A stretch of DNA of 43,450 bases from Peptococcaceae bacterium. Its GTDB lineage: Bacteria > Bacillota > Desulfotomaculia > Desulfotomaculales > JACDOK01. Made by a program: the position numbers and the translations under genes. Of this stretch, positions 31,433 to 39,434 are shown piece by piece. Position 1 is the stretch's first letter, and every line of letters begins with the position of its first letter. The notes beneath the pieces are model-generated. The model saw only the letters and a program-made list of their open reading frames with translations. It was not told the origin of the DNA and made no database searches. The stretch spans positions 1 through 43,450 of the forward strand of contig JACDOK010000018.1 in the NCBI GenBank assembly GCA_017656185.1. The letters are read 5' to 3'.

Positions 31433-31957
31433 ATGCATATACGCAGGATGGGAAAACGATGGCTTGTCTTGACAATCGCGGGAGTTTCGCTCGTGGCGGC
31501 GTTTTATGTTGGTTGGATCCGTAATACAGGCGACGGCAACTTTGGCCCTGCCGTATCCGAATATGTACTTTGGGAAACGCCGGAAGCCGAAGCGGCGACG
31601 GGACACAATATTAACATAACATTACTGGCCCGCGTCATCGAGGGCGAAGCGGGAGGAGAACCCTTTATAGGCAAAGTGGCTGTGGGAGCCGTTATTCTCA
31701 ACCGCATTCGTGATGCCCGCTTTCCTAACACGCTCAGCGGGGTAGTATTTCAGCCCCTGGCTTTTGAATCGGTAGCCAATGGCCGCATCTGGGAACCGGT
31801 ATCCCAGGAGTCGTACCGTGCCGCCCGGCTGGCGCTGGCAGGATGGGATCCGACACATAACGCGCTGTATTTCTGGAACCCGGCCAAACGGGTAAGCCGC
31901 TGGATTTGGACGCGTACTATTTTCACCCAAATCGGGAAACACGTGTTCGGAAGGTAA
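31433..31957 (+). CDS. sleB: SleB-type cell wall hydrolase
   Basis: The 174-residue protein has an N-terminal signal anchor (LVLTIAGVSLVAAFYVGW) and a C-terminal hydrolase domain: LLARVIEGEAGGEPFIGKVAVGAVILNR with the catalytic Glu, and YFWNPAKRVSRWIW. SleB is a spore-cortex lytic enzyme used in germination. The peptidoglycan-binding domain usual in Bacillus SleB is absent, as in many clostridial forms. GGGAGG directly abuts the ATG at 31433, so the ATG at 31448 may be the true start. It is 12 bases upstream of ypeB, the classic pair. Confidence 0.9.
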   Translation: MHIRRMGKRWLVLTIAGVSLVAAFYVGWIRNTGDGNFGPAVSEYVLWETPEAEAATGHNINITLLARVIEGEAGGEPFIGKVAVGAVILNRIRDARFPNTLSGVVFQPLAFESVANGRIWEPVSQESYRAARLALAGWDPTHNALYFWNPAKRVSRWIWTRTIFTQIGKHVFGR

Positions 31958-31969
31958 GGGGGTTGGCTG

Positions 31970-33340
31970 ATGAGTAAAAGATTAATATTACCAGCTTTTG
32001 TCGGTTTGCTTGTCGTAGCAGCTGTATGGGCTTGGGGCCTTGAACAGTCCAGGGCACGAGCAAGTCTGCAGAATATGTTAAATGCGCAGTACCAAAACGC
32101 TTTTTACAGTACCTTGACCCGCATCAACAACCTGGATGCATTGTTGGGCAAAGAAACAGTAGCTTCCGGGGAACAGCGGGCCATTCTGTTGGCTGATATT
32201 TGGCAGGAGGCTATCCAGGCACAGGCCAGCTTGACCCAGCTGCCGGTGCGCGATGTGGTCCTGTCTCAGACGGCCAAGTTTCTCGCCCAGGTAGGTGATT
32301 ATGCCCACAGTTTGATGCATGATCTAGCCCGTGGAAAGCAGATTTCGGCCCAAGAGCAGGACAAACTCCGAGAGATGCGCCGGCAGATGGCCACGCTGAA
32401 TAAGGAACTGCAAGAAATGGAGCGGGAAATCAATAAAAACGGTGCCGGGTACTGGGAAATTGCCGACCAGTTCCGTTCACGACCGGCGGCCCGCAAACCG
32501 CACACACCTGCTCCTGGTGAAGAAACCTTCAATGCCATCAACCGGGAAATTGAACAAATGCCCACGTTGATATACGACGGGCCGTTTTCGGATCATTTGG
32601 AGCGGCAAAAGCCTTTGGCATTAAAAGGTAAGAAAATGATCAGTGAAGCTGAGGCCAGGTCTCGCGCCTTAAAATTAATTGACGGGCAGGACGGGGTTAA
32701 CTACCAGGCCCGTGTGACAGGAAGCACCTTGGGACGGCTGCCCTCCTACCGGGTGGTAATTAAGGGACGGGGGCAGGGTCCCGACAAGAGCATCACCGTT
32801 GATATTTCAAAACATGGGGGCGAACCGGTATGGATGCTGCTGGCCCGCTCTGTAGGGAGCCCCAAATTGAATGTTGATGAAGGACGTGCTCGTGCAAAGG
32901 CCTATCTGGCCAAAATCGGTAAGCCCAATATGGTGGCTACTTATTGGGAGCGTAACGATAATACCGTGACCTACAACTTTGCCGGTAAAGAAAACGGGGT
33001 CATAATCTACCCGGACCTGATTAAGGTCACCGTCGCCCTTGATAACGGCCAGGTAGTCGGCATGGAAGCTGCCGGCTACCTTATGCAGCATCACGAACGG
33101 GATATTGCACAGCCCAGGCTCAGCGAAGCCGAAGCCCGCAAGCAGGTTGCTCCGGCATTGAACCCCGGTAATGGCCGCCTGGCGATTATCCCTACTGACG
33201 GCGGTGGGGAGGTACTGACCTATGAATTCCGGGGCCGCTCAGACGGTGCGGAATACTTGGTGTATATCAATGCCAATGACGGAAATACCGAAAAGATTCT
33301 GCAGCTGCAGGACACTAAAAACGGAACCCTGGTAATGTAA
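31970..33340 (+). CDS. ypeB: Germination protein YpeB
   Basis: The 456-residue protein has an N-terminal membrane anchor, a helical domain with YQNAFYSTLTRINNLDALLGK, and three C-terminal PepSY/YPEB repeats (near EAEARSRALKLIDG, GRARAKAYLAKIG and EAEARKQVAPAL). YpeB is needed to stabilise and localise SleB in the spore inner membrane/cortex. It begins 12 bases after sleB with GGGGG upstream. The pair marks the organism as a spore former. Confidence 0.94.
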   Translation: MSKRLILPAFVGLLVVAAVWAWGLEQSRARASLQNMLNAQYQNAFYSTLTRINNLDALLGKETVASGEQRAILLADIWQEAIQAQASLTQLPVRDVVLSQTAKFLAQVGDYAHSLMHDLARGKQISAQEQDKLREMRRQMATLNKELQEMEREINKNGAGYWEIADQFRSRPAARKPHTPAPGEETFNAINREIEQMPTLIYDGPFSDHLERQKPLALKGKKMISEAEARSRALKLIDGQDGVNYQARVTGSTLGRLPSYRVVIKGRGQGPDKSITVDISKHGGEPVWMLLARSVGSPKLNVDEGRARAKAYLAKIGKPNMVATYWERNDNTVTYNFAGKENGVIIYPDLIKVTVALDNGQVVGMEAAGYLMQHHERDIAQPRLSEAEARKQVAPALNPGNGRLAIIPTDGGGEVLTYEFRGRSDGAEYLVYINANDGNTEKILQLQDTKNGTLVM

Positions 33341-33763: not shown

Positions 33764-33850
33764 TTAGCCTTCCGTAGCCAGGATGATAAAGAGGATCAGC
33801 ACAATCACCAGCAAGCCGTTACGGCCAAAGATGCCGCCCAAATCTCCCAT
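33764..33850 (-). CDS. Hydrophobic mini-protein, 28 aa (array member 3)
   Basis: It starts MGDLGGIFGRNG, followed by the membrane helix LLVIVLILFIILA and ends TEG. AAGGAGGGAT lies nine bases before the ATG. It is nearly identical to member 4 and has its own terminator, so each unit looks like a separate transcript. The size, composition and site suggest a small spore-envelope peptide, inferred only from resemblance to YjcZ-like proteins and the sporulation neighbours. Confidence 0.72.
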   Translation of the reverse strand: MGDLGGIFGRNGLLVIVLILFIILATEG

Positions 33851-33937
33851 CAGCGATCCCTCCTTACAACTGTTCTGATGTCATCATACGGTAACAAGTG
33901 GGAAAATGTGACGTGGCTCGTCAGTTTTGGTCAAAAT

Positions 33938-33962
33938 GGCCCCGTCCATAAGAACGGGGCCC
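33938..33962 (-). terminator. Terminator downstream of array member 4
   Basis: GGCCCCGT pairs with ACGGGGCC around TCTTATGG, followed on the minus strand by ATTTTGACC. It is repeated exactly at 34155-34179 behind member 5. Confidence 0.82.
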
Positions 33963-33980
33963 TGTGTGGGTGCATTGCGG

Positions 33981-34067
33981 CTAAATGTCCAATGCCAGGA
34001 TGATAAAGAGGATCAACACAATCACCAGCAAACCGTTACGACCAAAGATGCCGCCCAAATCTCCCAT
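33981..34067 (-). CDS. Hydrophobic mini-protein, 28 aa (array member 4)
   Basis: It has the same head as member 3 (MGDLGGIFGRNG) and helix (LLVIVLILFIILA) and ends LDI. AAGGAGGGAT precedes the ATG. About 65 bases upstream, TCAC is followed after 17 bases by CGTATGATG, a weak match to the sigma-K pattern AC-N17-CATAnnnTA. Synonymous differences from member 3 with conserved protein sequence support coding. Confidence 0.75.
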   Translation of the reverse strand: MGDLGGIFGRNGLLVIVLILFIILALDI

Positions 34068-34154
34068 CAGCGATCCCTCCTTACAACTGTTCTGATGTCA
34101 TCATACGGTAACAAGTGGGAAAATGTGACGTGGCTCGTCAGTTTTGGTCAAAAT

Positions 34155-34179
34155 GGCCCCGTCCATAAGAACGGGGCCC
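34155..34179 (-). terminator. Terminator downstream of array member 5
   Basis: This is the exact 217-bp-shifted copy of the hairpin at 33938-33962, GGCCCCGT/ACGGGGCC followed on the minus strand by ATTTTG. Confidence 0.82.
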
Positions 34180-34197
34180 TGTGTGGGTGCATTGCGG

Positions 34198-34284
34198 CTA
34201 AATGTCCAATGCCAGGATGATAAAGAGGATCAACACGATAATCAGCAGACCGTCACGGTCAAATACACTTTCGACACTGGCCAT
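34198..34284 (-). CDS. Hydrophobic mini-protein, 28 aa (array member 5)
   Basis: It starts MASVESVFDRDG, followed by LLIIVLILFIILALDI. The second half is the same as member 4 while the head has diverged, so the helix seems to be the constrained part. AAGGAGGGAG precedes the ATG. Upstream, TCAC-N17-AATAGCATG again partly fits a sigma-K promoter. It is the outermost, oldest-looking unit of the array. Confidence 0.7.
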   Translation of the reverse strand: MASVESVFDRDGLLIIVLILFIILALDI

Positions 34285-34456
34285 CAACTATCTCCCTCCT
34301 TAACAAATGATTCAATGCCATGCTATTGCGGTAGTGGGAAAGTTGTGACGGTTACGGTTTAATACAAAAATCGAAAAATGCAAGAAAGATTTATTACGCA
34401 TAACAGCATTTCTACGAAATAATGCATAGGGTAATTAGGAAGGGAGGATGATAGCG

Positions 34457-34876
34457 TTGGCTGCAAATGGAACTTTATCGATTCAGGGAGATCTGACACA
34501 GCTAATGGCGGCGCTGCTGGTGGAATTGGTTTTACCGCGGAAGTCAAAAAGGGGCCTTACCATAACCGTGGAAACGGCTCCGCGCCCGGAACCACCGGTG
34601 ATGCTGTCGACTGGAGCGCCCGGTGATTACGGGCAGGTCAAGGCACAGCCGAATACGCCGCAACCCCAAAACAATTACAAAGAAGCCGGAGACCATAACA
34701 GCACTCCCCTACCCGGCCTTGTAGTGCCCGTGGACGGTAATTGCGGCACTAAAATCGATAAGCTGCAGACTTTTCTGGACGGGTTGACGGACGAAGAAAA
34801 GGCACAGCTGCTTGCCATGCTTAAGAAAAACCATAGTAACAAGTCTTACGGAACTGCGACACAGGACTGCTGGTAG
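34457..34876 (+). CDS. Unknown protein with LVELVLP motif, 139 aa
   Basis: I do not recognise this protein. The N-terminus (LMAALLVELVLPRKSKRGLTI and VETAPRPEPP) is clearly related to that of the next gene. A Pro/Asn/Gln-rich linker and a C-terminal helical segment (KLQTFLDGLTDEEKAQLLAM) follow. I place the start at the TTG nine bases after GGGAGG, because the ATG at 34448 abuts that site. It lies divergent from the mini-protein array and begins a plus-strand group of unknown genes in the sporulation island. Confidence 0.68.
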   Translation: MAANGTLSIQGDLTQLMAALLVELVLPRKSKRGLTITVETAPRPEPPVMLSTGAPGDYGQVKAQPNTPQPQNNYKEAGDHNSTPLPGLVVPVDGNCGTKIDKLQTFLDGLTDEEKAQLLAMLKKNHSNKSYGTATQDCW

Positions 34877-34972: not shown

Positions 34973-35167
34973 ATGGGCAAGCTTAAGGCCTTGCTTAACA
35001 GTCCCGAAGTAAAGGACCTGCTGGTCGCAATGCTGGCCGAACTTGTCTTGCCGGAGAGATCAAGGCGCGGTTTCAAAGTTACTATCGAAACAAAGCCCCG
35101 GCCCAGCCCACCCGTTAAGTTACCGGACGGATCCCAAAATGGACCTAATGGTAAGAACAACATATGA
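34973..35167 (+). CDS. Small protein with LAELVLP motif, 64 aa
   Basis: It is a short paralogue of the preceding protein: LLVAMLAELVLPERSRRGFK and VTIETKPRPSPPVKL align with the N-terminus there, and the long C-terminal part is missing. AAAAGGAGGTAGAGT before the ATG is a strong site. The pattern is a short amphipathic helix, a basic stretch, a beta strand and a Pro-rich tail. Function unknown. Confidence 0.68.
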   Translation: MGKLKALLNSPEVKDLLVAMLAELVLPERSRRGFKVTIETKPRPSPPVKLPDGSQNGPNGKNNI

Positions 35168-35263: not shown

Positions 35264-35692
35264 TTACATTCCGGCCAGCTTTTTTAACTGTCCAACAAGA
35301 CGGTCCTTACGTTTTTTCTTGCGCCGCAGGTACTCCTCCCGGGCAAAACGAGCCGCAGCGCCTGTTAATCCTATCTCCCGGAGATCCTGTTCCATGTTGC
35401 GTATCAGCGCTTCCAGTTTTTCATGTTCCTCGGTGTCCAACGCCTTAACCGAACTTTTGTATTTTTGGGCCGCAGCAGCAACGGTAGCCAGGGTGGCAGG
35501 CGTAAGATTCTGTATGTTTATAGAGCGTAGTTCGTTTATCCCCTGGGATAAAAGATGTTGGAATTTCTGCAAGAATTTTCTTTCCAGTGCTGCCAACGCA
35601 GATTCGTACCGGTTTTTGATTACCTCCGGGGCATCAAGTATGATGCCATCCATATTGTCCTGGGCTTGAGGATCTTTCCCTCTTTCCGTCAA
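35264..35692 (-). CDS. Unknown helical protein, 142 aa
   Basis: The protein is predicted almost fully helical and charged, with a very basic C-terminal part (ARFAREEYLRRKKKRKDRLV). It could bind nucleic acid or a membrane surface, but there is no recognised domain. It starts at TTG five bases after GGTGGAG. It is convergent with the LAELVLP genes and lies within the spore island. No function is proposed. Confidence 0.65.
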   Translation of the reverse strand: MTERGKDPQAQDNMDGIILDAPEVIKNRYESALAALERKFLQKFQHLLSQGINELRSINIQNLTPATLATVAAAAQKYKSSVKALDTEEHEKLEALIRNMEQDLREIGLTGAAARFAREEYLRRKKKRKDRLVGQLKKLAGM

Positions 35693-35783
35693 GTTGTCTC
35701 CACCTTTCCTAAGAAAAATAAACTCATTAACTACTGTATGTATTTTTGCGGAACCCCGTTACAGATTTGCCCGGCATTAACGG

Positions 35784-35984
35784 TTAGGAATAAGCACTAT
35801 ATAGAGCTAACAATACCGTAAAAGTACGTGCATGCCCGTACTCATCGCCAATGATGCTGTACACCAGGGCCTGCAGGGTGGGGTAATCATCCAATAAGCG
35901 GGCGATTTCGCTATACTCGTGCACAGCTTTTAATTCATCATCAAGCGCCGCTTCAATCATCGATCTCAGATCCTGATTAGACAC
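35784..35984 (-). CDS. Short ferritin-like/rubrerythrin-like protein, 66 aa
   Basis: Two helices carry ferritin-like iron-site patterns: DDELKAVHEYSEIARLL and IIGDEYGHARTF, the latter an ExxH motif. A complete ferritin-like bundle needs four helices, so this would have to dimerise or is a half-domain. The start chosen is GTG after TAAGGAGGGTTTACTG, removing 18 residues of a longer open frame. Small ferritin-like proteins occur in spore coats of clostridia, but that link is only suggestive here. Confidence 0.7.
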   Translation of the reverse strand: MSNQDLRSMIEAALDDELKAVHEYSEIARLLDDYPTLQALVYSIIGDEYGHARTFTVLLALYSAYS

Positions 35985-36161
35985 CAGTAAACCCTCCTTA
36001 GAAATACTTTTAATGCCTAATATATGCATATATGGCAAGAGGTGACAGGTGTAAGGGTAATTGAAAATGAAAAACGCATCATAAATATGAAATATATGAA
36101 ACCTGAAATATGAATGTGGTGCATATATTTCATTAAGAGACGCTCCAAGGAGGGGGATAGT

Positions 36162-37073
36162 TTGGCTTTTAAGTCAAAACTGGCCAACAGTCTCCTGAAC
36201 TTTCTTTTGTTTGAACTGATTTCATCCCACACAGGAAAGCGCCACCAGAACGGTGGGGATGATCAAGACAGAAAAAGTTCAGGGCGGGAATTGCTCCTCA
36301 GCATGCTGCAGCAGTACTTATTAAACGAGTTGAGCGCCGGTCAGGGTGTACAAACGATTTGTCTGGAGACCTCACCCGAAAAATCCGTAAAAGACGAAAG
36401 CGGTCTGTCACGGGAACTTTTACCCTTACTGTTACAGCAATTAATGTCTCGTCCCGGAACGGAAGCCGACCCCGGTGACGCCGGTGAGGATGAAACCGGA
36501 GCATCAGATAGTGGTTTGGGTAAAGAACTCCTGCCTCTTCTGCTGCAGCAGCTTATGGCCTCTCAGGAGACCGAAAGCAGCCCGGACAACACTGCAGCCG
36601 AAAGTGAAGCGAAACAGGATACTTCTCCGGAACAGTTGATCGAGATGCTGAAGGACGCATTATCGTCCCAGGACGAAAGTGCTGAGGAAACCGGTACTGA
36701 TAATGAACCTTACGGGATGACTGGAACTCATTTCCTGGCAGAGGAAAAATGGAACCAGTTTTTCTTGTACCAGCAGCAAATTATAGACAAATTACAAGCT
36801 ATTGACGAAAAGCTACAGCAGCTGGACGGTAAAGCCGGGGAATTGACGGATACGGTGAAAGAAATCGCAGAGAAACGGCAGGTACAATATTCCCCGGCAG
36901 CAACCGCTTGGCAAGCGAAAAAAAAATCTGGCGTTACGGGGCAGGACGCAACAAATGAAACCACCGCAAGCGCGTCAAAAGGAGAATCAAAAGAAGCGCA
37001 AGAGCCACAAATTAATTCTTCAGGCAAAGGAAAGATCATATACTGGCATTTCCCCGAGTCACAAACCAATTAG
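36162..37073 (+). CDS. Unknown acidic protein with LL-rich repeats and C-terminal YWHFPE motif
   Basis: The 303-residue protein has an amphipathic N-terminus (KLANSLLNFLLFELI), then three related segments (GRELLLSMLQQYLLNEL, SRELLPLLLQQLMSRPG, GKELLPLLLQQLMASQE) separated by acidic linkers, a coiled coil (IIDKLQAIDEKLQQLDGKAG) and a C-terminus GKIIYWHFPESQTN. The start is a TTG after AAGGAGGGGG. The same terminal motif ends the next protein. I do not recognise the family. Repeats and charge suggest a scaffold or coat component, which is inference. Confidence 0.72.
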   Translation: MAFKSKLANSLLNFLLFELISSHTGKRHQNGGDDQDRKSSGRELLLSMLQQYLLNELSAGQGVQTICLETSPEKSVKDESGLSRELLPLLLQQLMSRPGTEADPGDAGEDETGASDSGLGKELLPLLLQQLMASQETESSPDNTAAESEAKQDTSPEQLIEMLKDALSSQDESAEETGTDNEPYGMTGTHFLAEEKWNQFFLYQQQIIDKLQAIDEKLQQLDGKAGELTDTVKEIAEKRQVQYSPAATAWQAKKKSGVTGQDATNETTASASKGESKEAQEPQINSSGKGKIIYWHFPESQTN

Positions 37074-37135
37074 GCAGTCATATGATAACAATATCAGTTT
37101 GGGATAAAAAATAAAGTGAAAGGGGGGACAAAACT

Positions 37136-38137
37136 TTGGCTCGTAAAAGCCTGGAGTTACTACAAGAGGCCTATGTGAGAGAAAAGGCCCTCTTGGGCCT
37201 GAGCCAGCGTCTTCTTGATTTGGCACCGGGTTATGAGGCTGTTTCCCTGGTGGCGGACATGGCACGCGACGGCAAATGGCATTTAAGAATGCTGGAAGAC
37301 GCCGTTCCCGGAATTGATAAAAATCGCCAGCAGCAGTATATCCTGCGGGACTTCAATGATTTTTTTGAAGGTGCGAACCAGGTTCTAAGGATCTTAAAGG
37401 AAGTCCTGGAGTACATAAAGGAGTTCCTGGAGTCCGGCAGGAGCCACAGGTTGCTGGTGCTGGTGCAGGAAATTAAGGACGATTTGGATTTACATATTCT
37501 CAAATTGGAAGCCTTGGTGCAATTTAAAATGAAGGGCCCAAAGGCCAAAATCAAACCGCTACAAGCTACGGTACCACCGGTGGGAAATATTGAAGAACTA
37601 CTTGGTAAATATAGTGAAAAGACCGAAATTCTCAAAAAACTCAAGGAAAAAATAAGCATACCTGAAGGTGCTAAAGAAACGGAGCAACAGGAAGACATGC
37701 CGCAAAAGGTAGAGGATGTTCCCAAAGAAAAGGATACTCCGGAAGATAGTGTTATCGAAGGTCCCGAAGCGGAAGTGGAACAGGTGCCGCCGGAACAGCA
37801 GCAACAACAAAATGAAGCATTAACGGAGGATGTTAAGGACCAGGATTCTCCCGAACAGGCCCAAGACCGGGAATCTTCAGAACGGCTTGAAGACCAGCCG
37901 GATATGGACATTGATTCACCTCAGAGTGGGGATGAACCGGAAAGTATGAGTACAGGCAAGGAGGCCGAAGAAGCTGAACCACCCGCATCCGTACAAAGGG
38001 TGCCCGCGTACCGGATAGGCGCGTCGGGTATCGGGTCCTTTACACGAAGTTCTGTCTCTGAATTAAAAAGGAAGGCCAAAACACGCCGGGAAATTGAGAA
38101 GGGTAACATCTTATACTGGCATTTCCCCGAAAAATAA
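37136..38137 (+). CDS. Unknown protein, helical domain, acidic linker and C-terminal YWHFPE motif
   Basis: The product has 333 residues. Residues 1-150 form a helical domain with H and E residues in helices (DGKWHLRMLEDAVPG, DDLDLHILKLEALVQ), faintly ferritin-like. Residues about 175-290 are a Glu/Gln/Pro-rich low-complexity region, including a Gln run. The C-terminus is EKGNILYWHFPEK, matching the previous protein. It starts at TTG after AAGGGGGGACAAAAC, 62 bases downstream, so the two genes are likely one operon. A strong terminator follows. Function unknown. Confidence 0.72.
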   Translation: MARKSLELLQEAYVREKALLGLSQRLLDLAPGYEAVSLVADMARDGKWHLRMLEDAVPGIDKNRQQQYILRDFNDFFEGANQVLRILKEVLEYIKEFLESGRSHRLLVLVQEIKDDLDLHILKLEALVQFKMKGPKAKIKPLQATVPPVGNIEELLGKYSEKTEILKKLKEKISIPEGAKETEQQEDMPQKVEDVPKEKDTPEDSVIEGPEAEVEQVPPEQQQQQNEALTEDVKDQDSPEQAQDRESSERLEDQPDMDIDSPQSGDEPESMSTGKEAEEAEPPASVQRVPAYRIGASGIGSFTRSSVSELKRKAKTRREIEKGNILYWHFPEK

Positions 38138-38157: not shown

Positions 38158-38185
38158 GGGGCCGCAGGAGAAGCGGCCCTTTTTG
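38158..38185 (+). terminator. Terminator of the YWHFPE gene pair
   Basis: GGGCCGC pairs with GCGGCCC around AGGAGAA, followed by TTTTTG. Confidence 0.88.
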
Positions 38186-38461: not shown

Positions 38462-38686
38462 TTATTCTGCACGCAGGTGGAAATGGCCGCTCTTTTTATT
38501 GATCCATTCGTCCAGAGGCTGGTTATAGGTTTCATCTTCCAAGGAGTACAGCGGTACCCCGGCCCCAACCTCTTCGTCTTCTAACGCCGATGCCCGAAAT
38601 GGCGATACCGAACTTCTGCCCACCACCGGCTGAGAAGGGTCCTCGAATTCGGGTTCGGTATAAAGAGGAAAACCCTCGCCTGTCAT
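38462..38686 (-). CDS. Small acidic protein, 74 aa
   Basis: AAGGGGG eight bases before ATG 38686 decides the start; a longer frame to 38752 has no site. The protein is acidic and probably disordered, with two similar short segments (EGFPLYTEPEFE and AGVPLYSLEDE). No known domain is visible. It sits in the sporulation island upstream of the 46-residue gene and may be co-transcribed with it. Confidence 0.58.
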   Translation of the reverse strand: MTGEGFPLYTEPEFEDPSQPVVGRSSVSPFRASALEDEEVGAGVPLYSLEDETYNQPLDEWINKKSGHFHLRAE

Positions 38687-38767
38687 TTTTATAACCCCCT
38701 TGCCACTAGCATGCGTCTTCAAGCCAAATTTAAAACCGTAAACCGGTTCCATATCAACAAATAAATA

Positions 38768-39030: not shown

Positions 39031-39073
39031 TAGTGGTTCCATCATCTTCCAATCAAGGGGGGGTTTTTACGGT

Positions 39074-39169
39074 ATGGATCAACAATTGATTTTACCTGTC
39101 GTTTTGCCTTTGGGGTTCCTGGTCCTCTTCATTATCATCGTGGCAGTAATCCTCATTGTCATCATTTAA
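39074..39169 (+). CDS. Hydrophobic mini-protein, 31 aa
   Basis: It begins MDQQLILPVVLPLG and continues as a membrane helix rich in Ile, Val and Leu. AAGGGGGGG lies 11 bases upstream of the ATG. It is a diverged tandem partner of the gene at 39342, with a related leader and promoter. Almost the whole protein is hydrophobic, so it is probably membrane- or coat-embedded. Its function is unknown. Confidence 0.62.
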   Translation: MDQQLILPVVLPLGFLVLFIIIVAVILIVII

Positions 39170-39271
39170 CGTGCAGCCCATAACAAAAAGCGCCGCTTTT
39201 TGCGGTACCTAAAAATTAAAAGAGTTTAGTCTGGAGATTAGAGCTAAATAAAAAGGTCCCCTGAGGGATAT

Positions 39272-39300
39272 CACGTTCAGGTACTGTGCTGCATAACGTA
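39272..39300 (+). promoter_or_regulatory. Sigma-K-like promoter, second tandem peptide
   Basis: CAC at 39272-39274 is followed after 17 bases by CATAACGTA at 39292-39300, the canonical sigma-K spacing and boxes. The TATCACGTT context is shared with the first copy. Confidence 0.6.
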
Positions 39301-39341
39301 TATTAGTTCCATTATCTTCCAGCAAAGGAGGTCTTTACAGT

Positions 39342-39434
39342 ATGGATACACAACAAATCTTTTGGCCCCTTTGGCTGCTGCCTTTACTGCTTTTAATCCC
39401 TATCATCATCATTATCATCGTAATAATTATCTAG
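39342..39434 (+). CDS. Hydrophobic mini-protein, 30 aa
   Basis: It begins MDTQQIFWPLWLLPLLLLIP and ends in an all Ile/Val stretch. AAAGGAGG lies ten bases before the ATG and a GC-rich terminator follows. The upstream 100 bases resemble those of the gene at 39074, with a 268-bp period between the two starts. The near-pure aliphatic C-terminus is unusual. The sigma-K-like promoter suggests late mother-cell expression. Confidence 0.65.
   Translation: MDTQQIFWPLWLLPLLLLIPIIIIIIVIII

Follow-up and report, generated by a model that had tools for sequence, protein, structure and literature searches.

Two neighbouring genes in the genome of a Peptococcaceae bacterium, here termed P1 and P2, encode proteins that carry the same 11-residue tail, KG[KN]I[IL]YWHFPE, at or near their C-termini (9 of 11 positions identical), on bodies that are otherwise dissimilar. 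We propose, with a confidence that falls just short of even, that both are late-sporulation structural proteins and that this lineage-specific peptide anchors them to a common partner. All coordinates refer to the window, i.e., the whole stretch of 43,450 nucleotides that was analysed, and are collected in Table 1.

Two adjacent genes and their common tail

The P1 and P2 ORFs both start with TTG, are preceded by strong ribosome sites (AAGGAGG and GGGGGG, respectively), and have a coding-like GC content by codon position. Both products are acidic, with a D+E content of 16.5% and a pI of 4.6 for P1, and 20.4% and 4.8 for P2. Pfam and NCBIfam scans of the two proteins gave no match above cut-off, and no full-length orthologue of either was found; the source family is represented by the present genome only. 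The sequence-only reading had described two adjacent products of 303 and 333 residues with acidic regions, ending in GKIIYWHFPE and GNILYWHFPE and otherwise failing to align. Coordinates, lengths, and acidic character were confirmed, and the shared ending was found to reach one residue further.

Alignment of the last 20 residues of P1 and P2 yielded a score of 61, compared to a maximum of 38 over 2000 shuffles. Searched with at most one mismatch, TAYTGGCAYTTYCCNGAR occurs twice in the window (0.03 expected), and the 2.3-Mb genome holds exactly two occurrences. After removal of the tails, the bodies aligned with a score of 70, which was reached by 23 of 2000 composition-preserving shuffles, and similarity of the N-terminal regions was at chance level (513 of 2000 shuffles). 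The E-value of 7e-10 obtained by blastp for the untrimmed proteins with low-complexity filtering switched off can be attributed to the composition of the acidic linkers together with the tail. Judged by these comparisons, P1 and P2 are not demonstrably related outside their tails beyond composition, so that the earlier statement that nothing else aligns holds.

Table 1. Features of the P1/P2 locus, with positions in the window.
Feature	Position	Strand	Remarks
sleB-type cell wall hydrolase and ypeB	31433..33340	+	Spore germination genes, upstream of P1/P2
Paralogue of the 64-aa ORF	34457..34876	+	N-terminal 54 residues 44% identical, score 125; no tail
64-aa ORF	34973..35167	+	Module LLxxMLAELVLPxxSxRGxxVTIETxPRP; no tail; alignment with P1
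142-aa helical orphan ORF	35264..35692	-	Preceded by a sigma-K-like site (35732-35759, minus)
Short two-helix ferritin-like ORF	35784..36038	-	Actual start probably near 35988; preceded by a sigma-K-like site (36018-36043, minus)
P1 ORF, 303 aa	36162..37073	+	Helical repeats rich in LL, then a coiled coil (~190-239), a disordered acidic/Q-rich linker, and the C-terminal tail
P1 tail KGKIIYWHFPE	37026..37058	+	Residues 289-299, followed by SQTN
Sigma-K-like promoter ACAAACCAATTAGGCAGTCATATGATA (candidate)	37061..37087	+	Between P1 and P2; consensus match only
P2 ORF, 333 aa	37136..38137	+	Degenerate ferritin-like domain, then an acidic linker and the C-terminal tail
P2 ferritin-like four-helix domain	37139..37558	+	Helices B, C, and D without their Glu; both His retained
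P2 tail KGNILYWHFPE	38099..38131	+	Residues 322-332, followed by K and stop
Intrinsic terminator-like element	38159..38185	+	GGGCCGC-loop-GCGGCCC-TTTTTGT after P2; read from sequence

On the DNA level, a 19-bp stretch (TATACTGGCATTTCCCCGA) is identical in both tails, and five codons (ATC TAC CAT TTC CCC) agree including their silent positions, for which codon usage gives a probability of about 1.5%. This identity allows a recent copy instead of long selection. The main rival to our proposal is accordingly copying of the tail between neighbours, in which the 3' end was either locally duplicated or transferred by gene conversion, with no shared docking role implied. Adjacency of the two genes and absence of the tail from every other genome searched fit such an event. 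However, the similarity of P1 and P2 ends sharply at the tail, and both reading frame and near-terminal position are preserved. Furthermore, three of eight silent third positions in the 11 tail codons differ, and the replacements are restricted to two mild ones (K/N and I/L), although these numbers are too small to decide. Altogether, we consider tail copying unlikely, if less so than the other alternatives discussed below.

The expectation that the tail is a tag used across spore-forming clostridia was not borne out. None of the order's 112 other genomes contained an exact YWHFPE codon pattern. A profile built from both tails detected its own copies with an E-value of 1e-19, and its matches elsewhere in the order were internal or non-coding, none being in tail position; the best of them (VEKGKIFYFHLP in proteins of approximately 360 aa from G061, G062, and G082) were rejected as internal. 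A 24-base tail pattern gave 31 matches over 84,980 species genomes, with about 20 expected from base composition. Most of the 31 fall in frames that are very short or improbable, none provides a comparable protein with a tail, and we judged them to be chance matches. These searches rule out a widespread clostridial tag for exact and profile tails. A viral origin was likewise dismissed, the two pattern matches in IMG/VR falling in short ORFs and being judged chance. Within the own genome, allowing up to three mismatches revealed one further match, which is not tail-like. YWHFPE was not found in the literature searched, in line with the earlier remark that no family with such a tag is known. As the tail is known from one species, only two copies, both from the same genome, speak for its conservation. 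We regard it as real, unusual, and limited to one known species, with a docking role that is plausible but unproven.

Heads of P1 and P2 and their tail-less relatives

P1 is built of helical LLxxLLQQLM repeats of the type SGLxxELLPLLLQQLM; alignment of repeats 3 and 4 scored 85, with a shuffle maximum of 44. Residues 42-75 are related to the 64-aa ORF at 34973 (score 41, reached by 0 of 2000 shuffles), which itself has a paralogue in the window. No credible relatives of these modules were found, neither in the order nor among 398 genomes of the phylum, where the small LL-module ORFs gave chance-level matches only. Single-sequence structure models of P1 and P2 were poor (mean pLDDT 45). In P1, the long helix at residues 190-239 is the only part above a pLDDT of 70, and in P2 helices are predicted at residues 2-27, 30-56, 62-99, and 104-133, where expected, with a pLDDT of only about 45.

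For P2, a first scan of genome contigs revealed no relatives, and none were found on plasmids. A search of the order with P2 alone identified short ferritin-like proteins in G073 (E 1.7e-7) and G109 (E 1.9e-4), both of which score above the cut-off of PF02915 (rubrerythrin), whereas P2 itself has no Pfam match. With a profile of these three proteins, such domains were detected in 34 of 113 genomes (E ≤ 1e-6). At 29 other loci the protein ends 0-23 residues past the domain, with neither linker nor tail, whereas P2 runs on for 196 residues, comprising roughly 190 residues of acidic linker and then the tail.

Residues 1-141 of P2 are homologous to these order members, i.e., to ferritin-like proteins of the rubrerythrin superfamily, from which P2 differs by the loss of three carboxylate ligands and by its unique linker and tail. 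The homologues largely keep the Glu of helix A, DExxH in helix B, the Glu of helix C, and DExxH in helix D, with partly degenerate ligand motifs in one of them (L103). P2 has retained the first Glu and both His; helix B reads DGKWH, the Glu of helix C is missing, and helix D reads DLDLH, which amounts to a loss of three of the four carboxylate metal-ligand positions. The P2 head is thus a homologue of ferritin-like proteins that very probably lacks a di-metal site, and the loss of Glu from helices B, C, and D points to a structural rather than an enzymatic role. Since neither the homologues of the P2 head nor the relatives of the P1 module bear the tail, we conclude that it was added to two scaffolds, which supports its interpretation as a separable module on unrelated proteins.

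A terminal peptide on a ferritin-like protein also resembles the cargo of encapsulin-like nanocompartments, which bears specific recognition sequences (PMC11202242). Moreover, the short ferritin-like ORF at 35784-36038 weakly matches encapsulin-cargo models, below cut-off. However, the P2 head differs from such cargo and appears to be inactive, its metal-ligand residues being lost, and no shell gene was detected in the genome by a search for encapsulin family 1 (PF04454), to which control genomes responded. As no family 1 shell gene was found, we rejected family 1 cargo and disfavour a cargo-loading function, which we consider extremely improbable.

Sporulation setting of the locus

The sleB and ypeB germination genes precede P1 and P2 on the same strand. 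We searched the window for the sigma-K-like promoter pattern AC-N15-17-CATANNNTA. It was modelled on the sigma-K promoter of B. subtilis, whose consensus consists of two blocks 14-16 nt apart (PMC517825), and its spacing agrees with that consensus. Within the 6.2-kb interval that separates ypeB from a phosphate-binding gene (33.34-39.52 kb), the pattern occurs six times, compared to 0.37 expected, and none of 500 resamplings reached this number. The remaining 37 kb contain two occurrences (1.9 expected). Two of the six sites are copies within one duplication, which leaves five independent ones. The site ACAAACCAATTAGGCAGTCATATGATA begins 75 bp before the P2 start, and no perfect site was found for P1. 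Based on the adjacent sleB-ypeB pair and the clustered sigma-K-like sites, the P1/P2 locus looks sporulation-linked.

Several further small ORFs were noted in this region. Tandem hydrophobic ORFs of 28-29 aa (e.g., MGDLGGIFGRNGLLVIVLILFIILALDI) occupy positions 33764-34287 of the minus strand, two of them inside a 217-bp direct duplication; by eye they look like YjcZ-type sporulation proteins, and no family model matched. Two more tiny membrane ORFs, starting with MDQQLILPVVLPLGFLVLF and MDTQQIFWPLWLLPLLLL, are located on the plus strand at 39072-39430, both preceded by similar sigma-K-like stretches, of which that at 39273-39300 is perfect. An orphan ORF on the minus strand (38465-38752) contains internal PLYxxxxE repeats (GFPLYTEPEFEDP, GVPLYSLEDETY) and has no family match. 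A gene for a sleB-type cell wall hydrolase is also found less than 2 kb away from the closest ferritin-like relative of P2 in G073 (L018, 2087-2566 and 4339-5019, both minus).

A possible docking role of the tail

In our proposal, P1 and P2 would be made late in sporulation under the mother-cell factor sigma-K. Each would contribute a separate helical assembly head, formed by the LL-rich repeats and coiled coil in P1 and by a presumably catalytically dead ferritin-like bundle in P2, from which a flexible acidic linker would lead to the shared linear motif. The tail may then act as a docking element for one partner common to both proteins. Binding of both tails by one partner would bring P1 and P2 to the same layer, most likely the spore coat. 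The sequence-only reading had suggested a sorting, docking, or modification tag, possibly for assembly on the spore; the occurrence of the tail as a module separable from its two unrelated scaffolds and the sporulation-linked look of the locus speak for this interpretation. A spread of the tag over spore-forming clostridia was not supported.

The best functional precedent is BclA of the Bacillus cereus group, whose amino-terminal domain, an exosporium anchoring peptide, binds BxpB and is sufficient by this means to attach a protein to the exosporium (PMC10470788). As for such anchors, the tail is a short terminal peptide, here common to two unrelated proteins; the comparison concerns the way of working and not membership. 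The BclA peptide is N-terminal, has another sequence and a known partner, and carries collagen-like cargo, whereas the P1/P2 tail is C-terminal, has a putative partner, and is attached to two helical cargos in one species.

The partner of each tail could also be the other tail, so that the two would pair mutually, in a beta or zipper-like manner, for co-assembly. The stretches IIYWHFP and ILYWHFP are very hydrophobic and aromatic and sit behind long linkers, and the two proteins stem from adjacent genes, which are the only two in the genome to carry the tail. However, an ordered tail is absent from the single-sequence models, and we rate such homotypic contacts as rather improbable. Exposure of the tail behind a disordered linker would also suit a signal for a protease or for an enzyme that modifies the protein. 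In the ORF list, though, neither a maturase nor a protease gene was noticed alongside, and we know of no degron that resembles the tail. Mycofactocin-type precursors are short peptides, in contrast to P1 and P2 with about 300 aa. A processing or degradation signal is therefore very unlikely in our estimation.

Returning to docking to a common partner, its broadest form would be a C-terminal docking code, not described before, by which a spore layer is built. It would have been invented in one lineage by placing the same 11-residue tail on two self-assembling heads that are unrelated to each other, with an inactivated ferritin-like protein recruited as one of these scaffolds. We put this forward tentatively and hold it to be clearly less probable than anchoring as such.

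The evolution of spore coats is rapid, and little is understood of how newly arising coat proteins acquire their position. If the tail were a mere local copy without function, it would be a curiosity. If our proposal is true, P1 and P2 would offer a simple, testable case of recruitment by tagging, with a short terminal peptide on two lineage-specific proteins that are unrelated to each other and of which one is based on a disabled ferritin-like fold.
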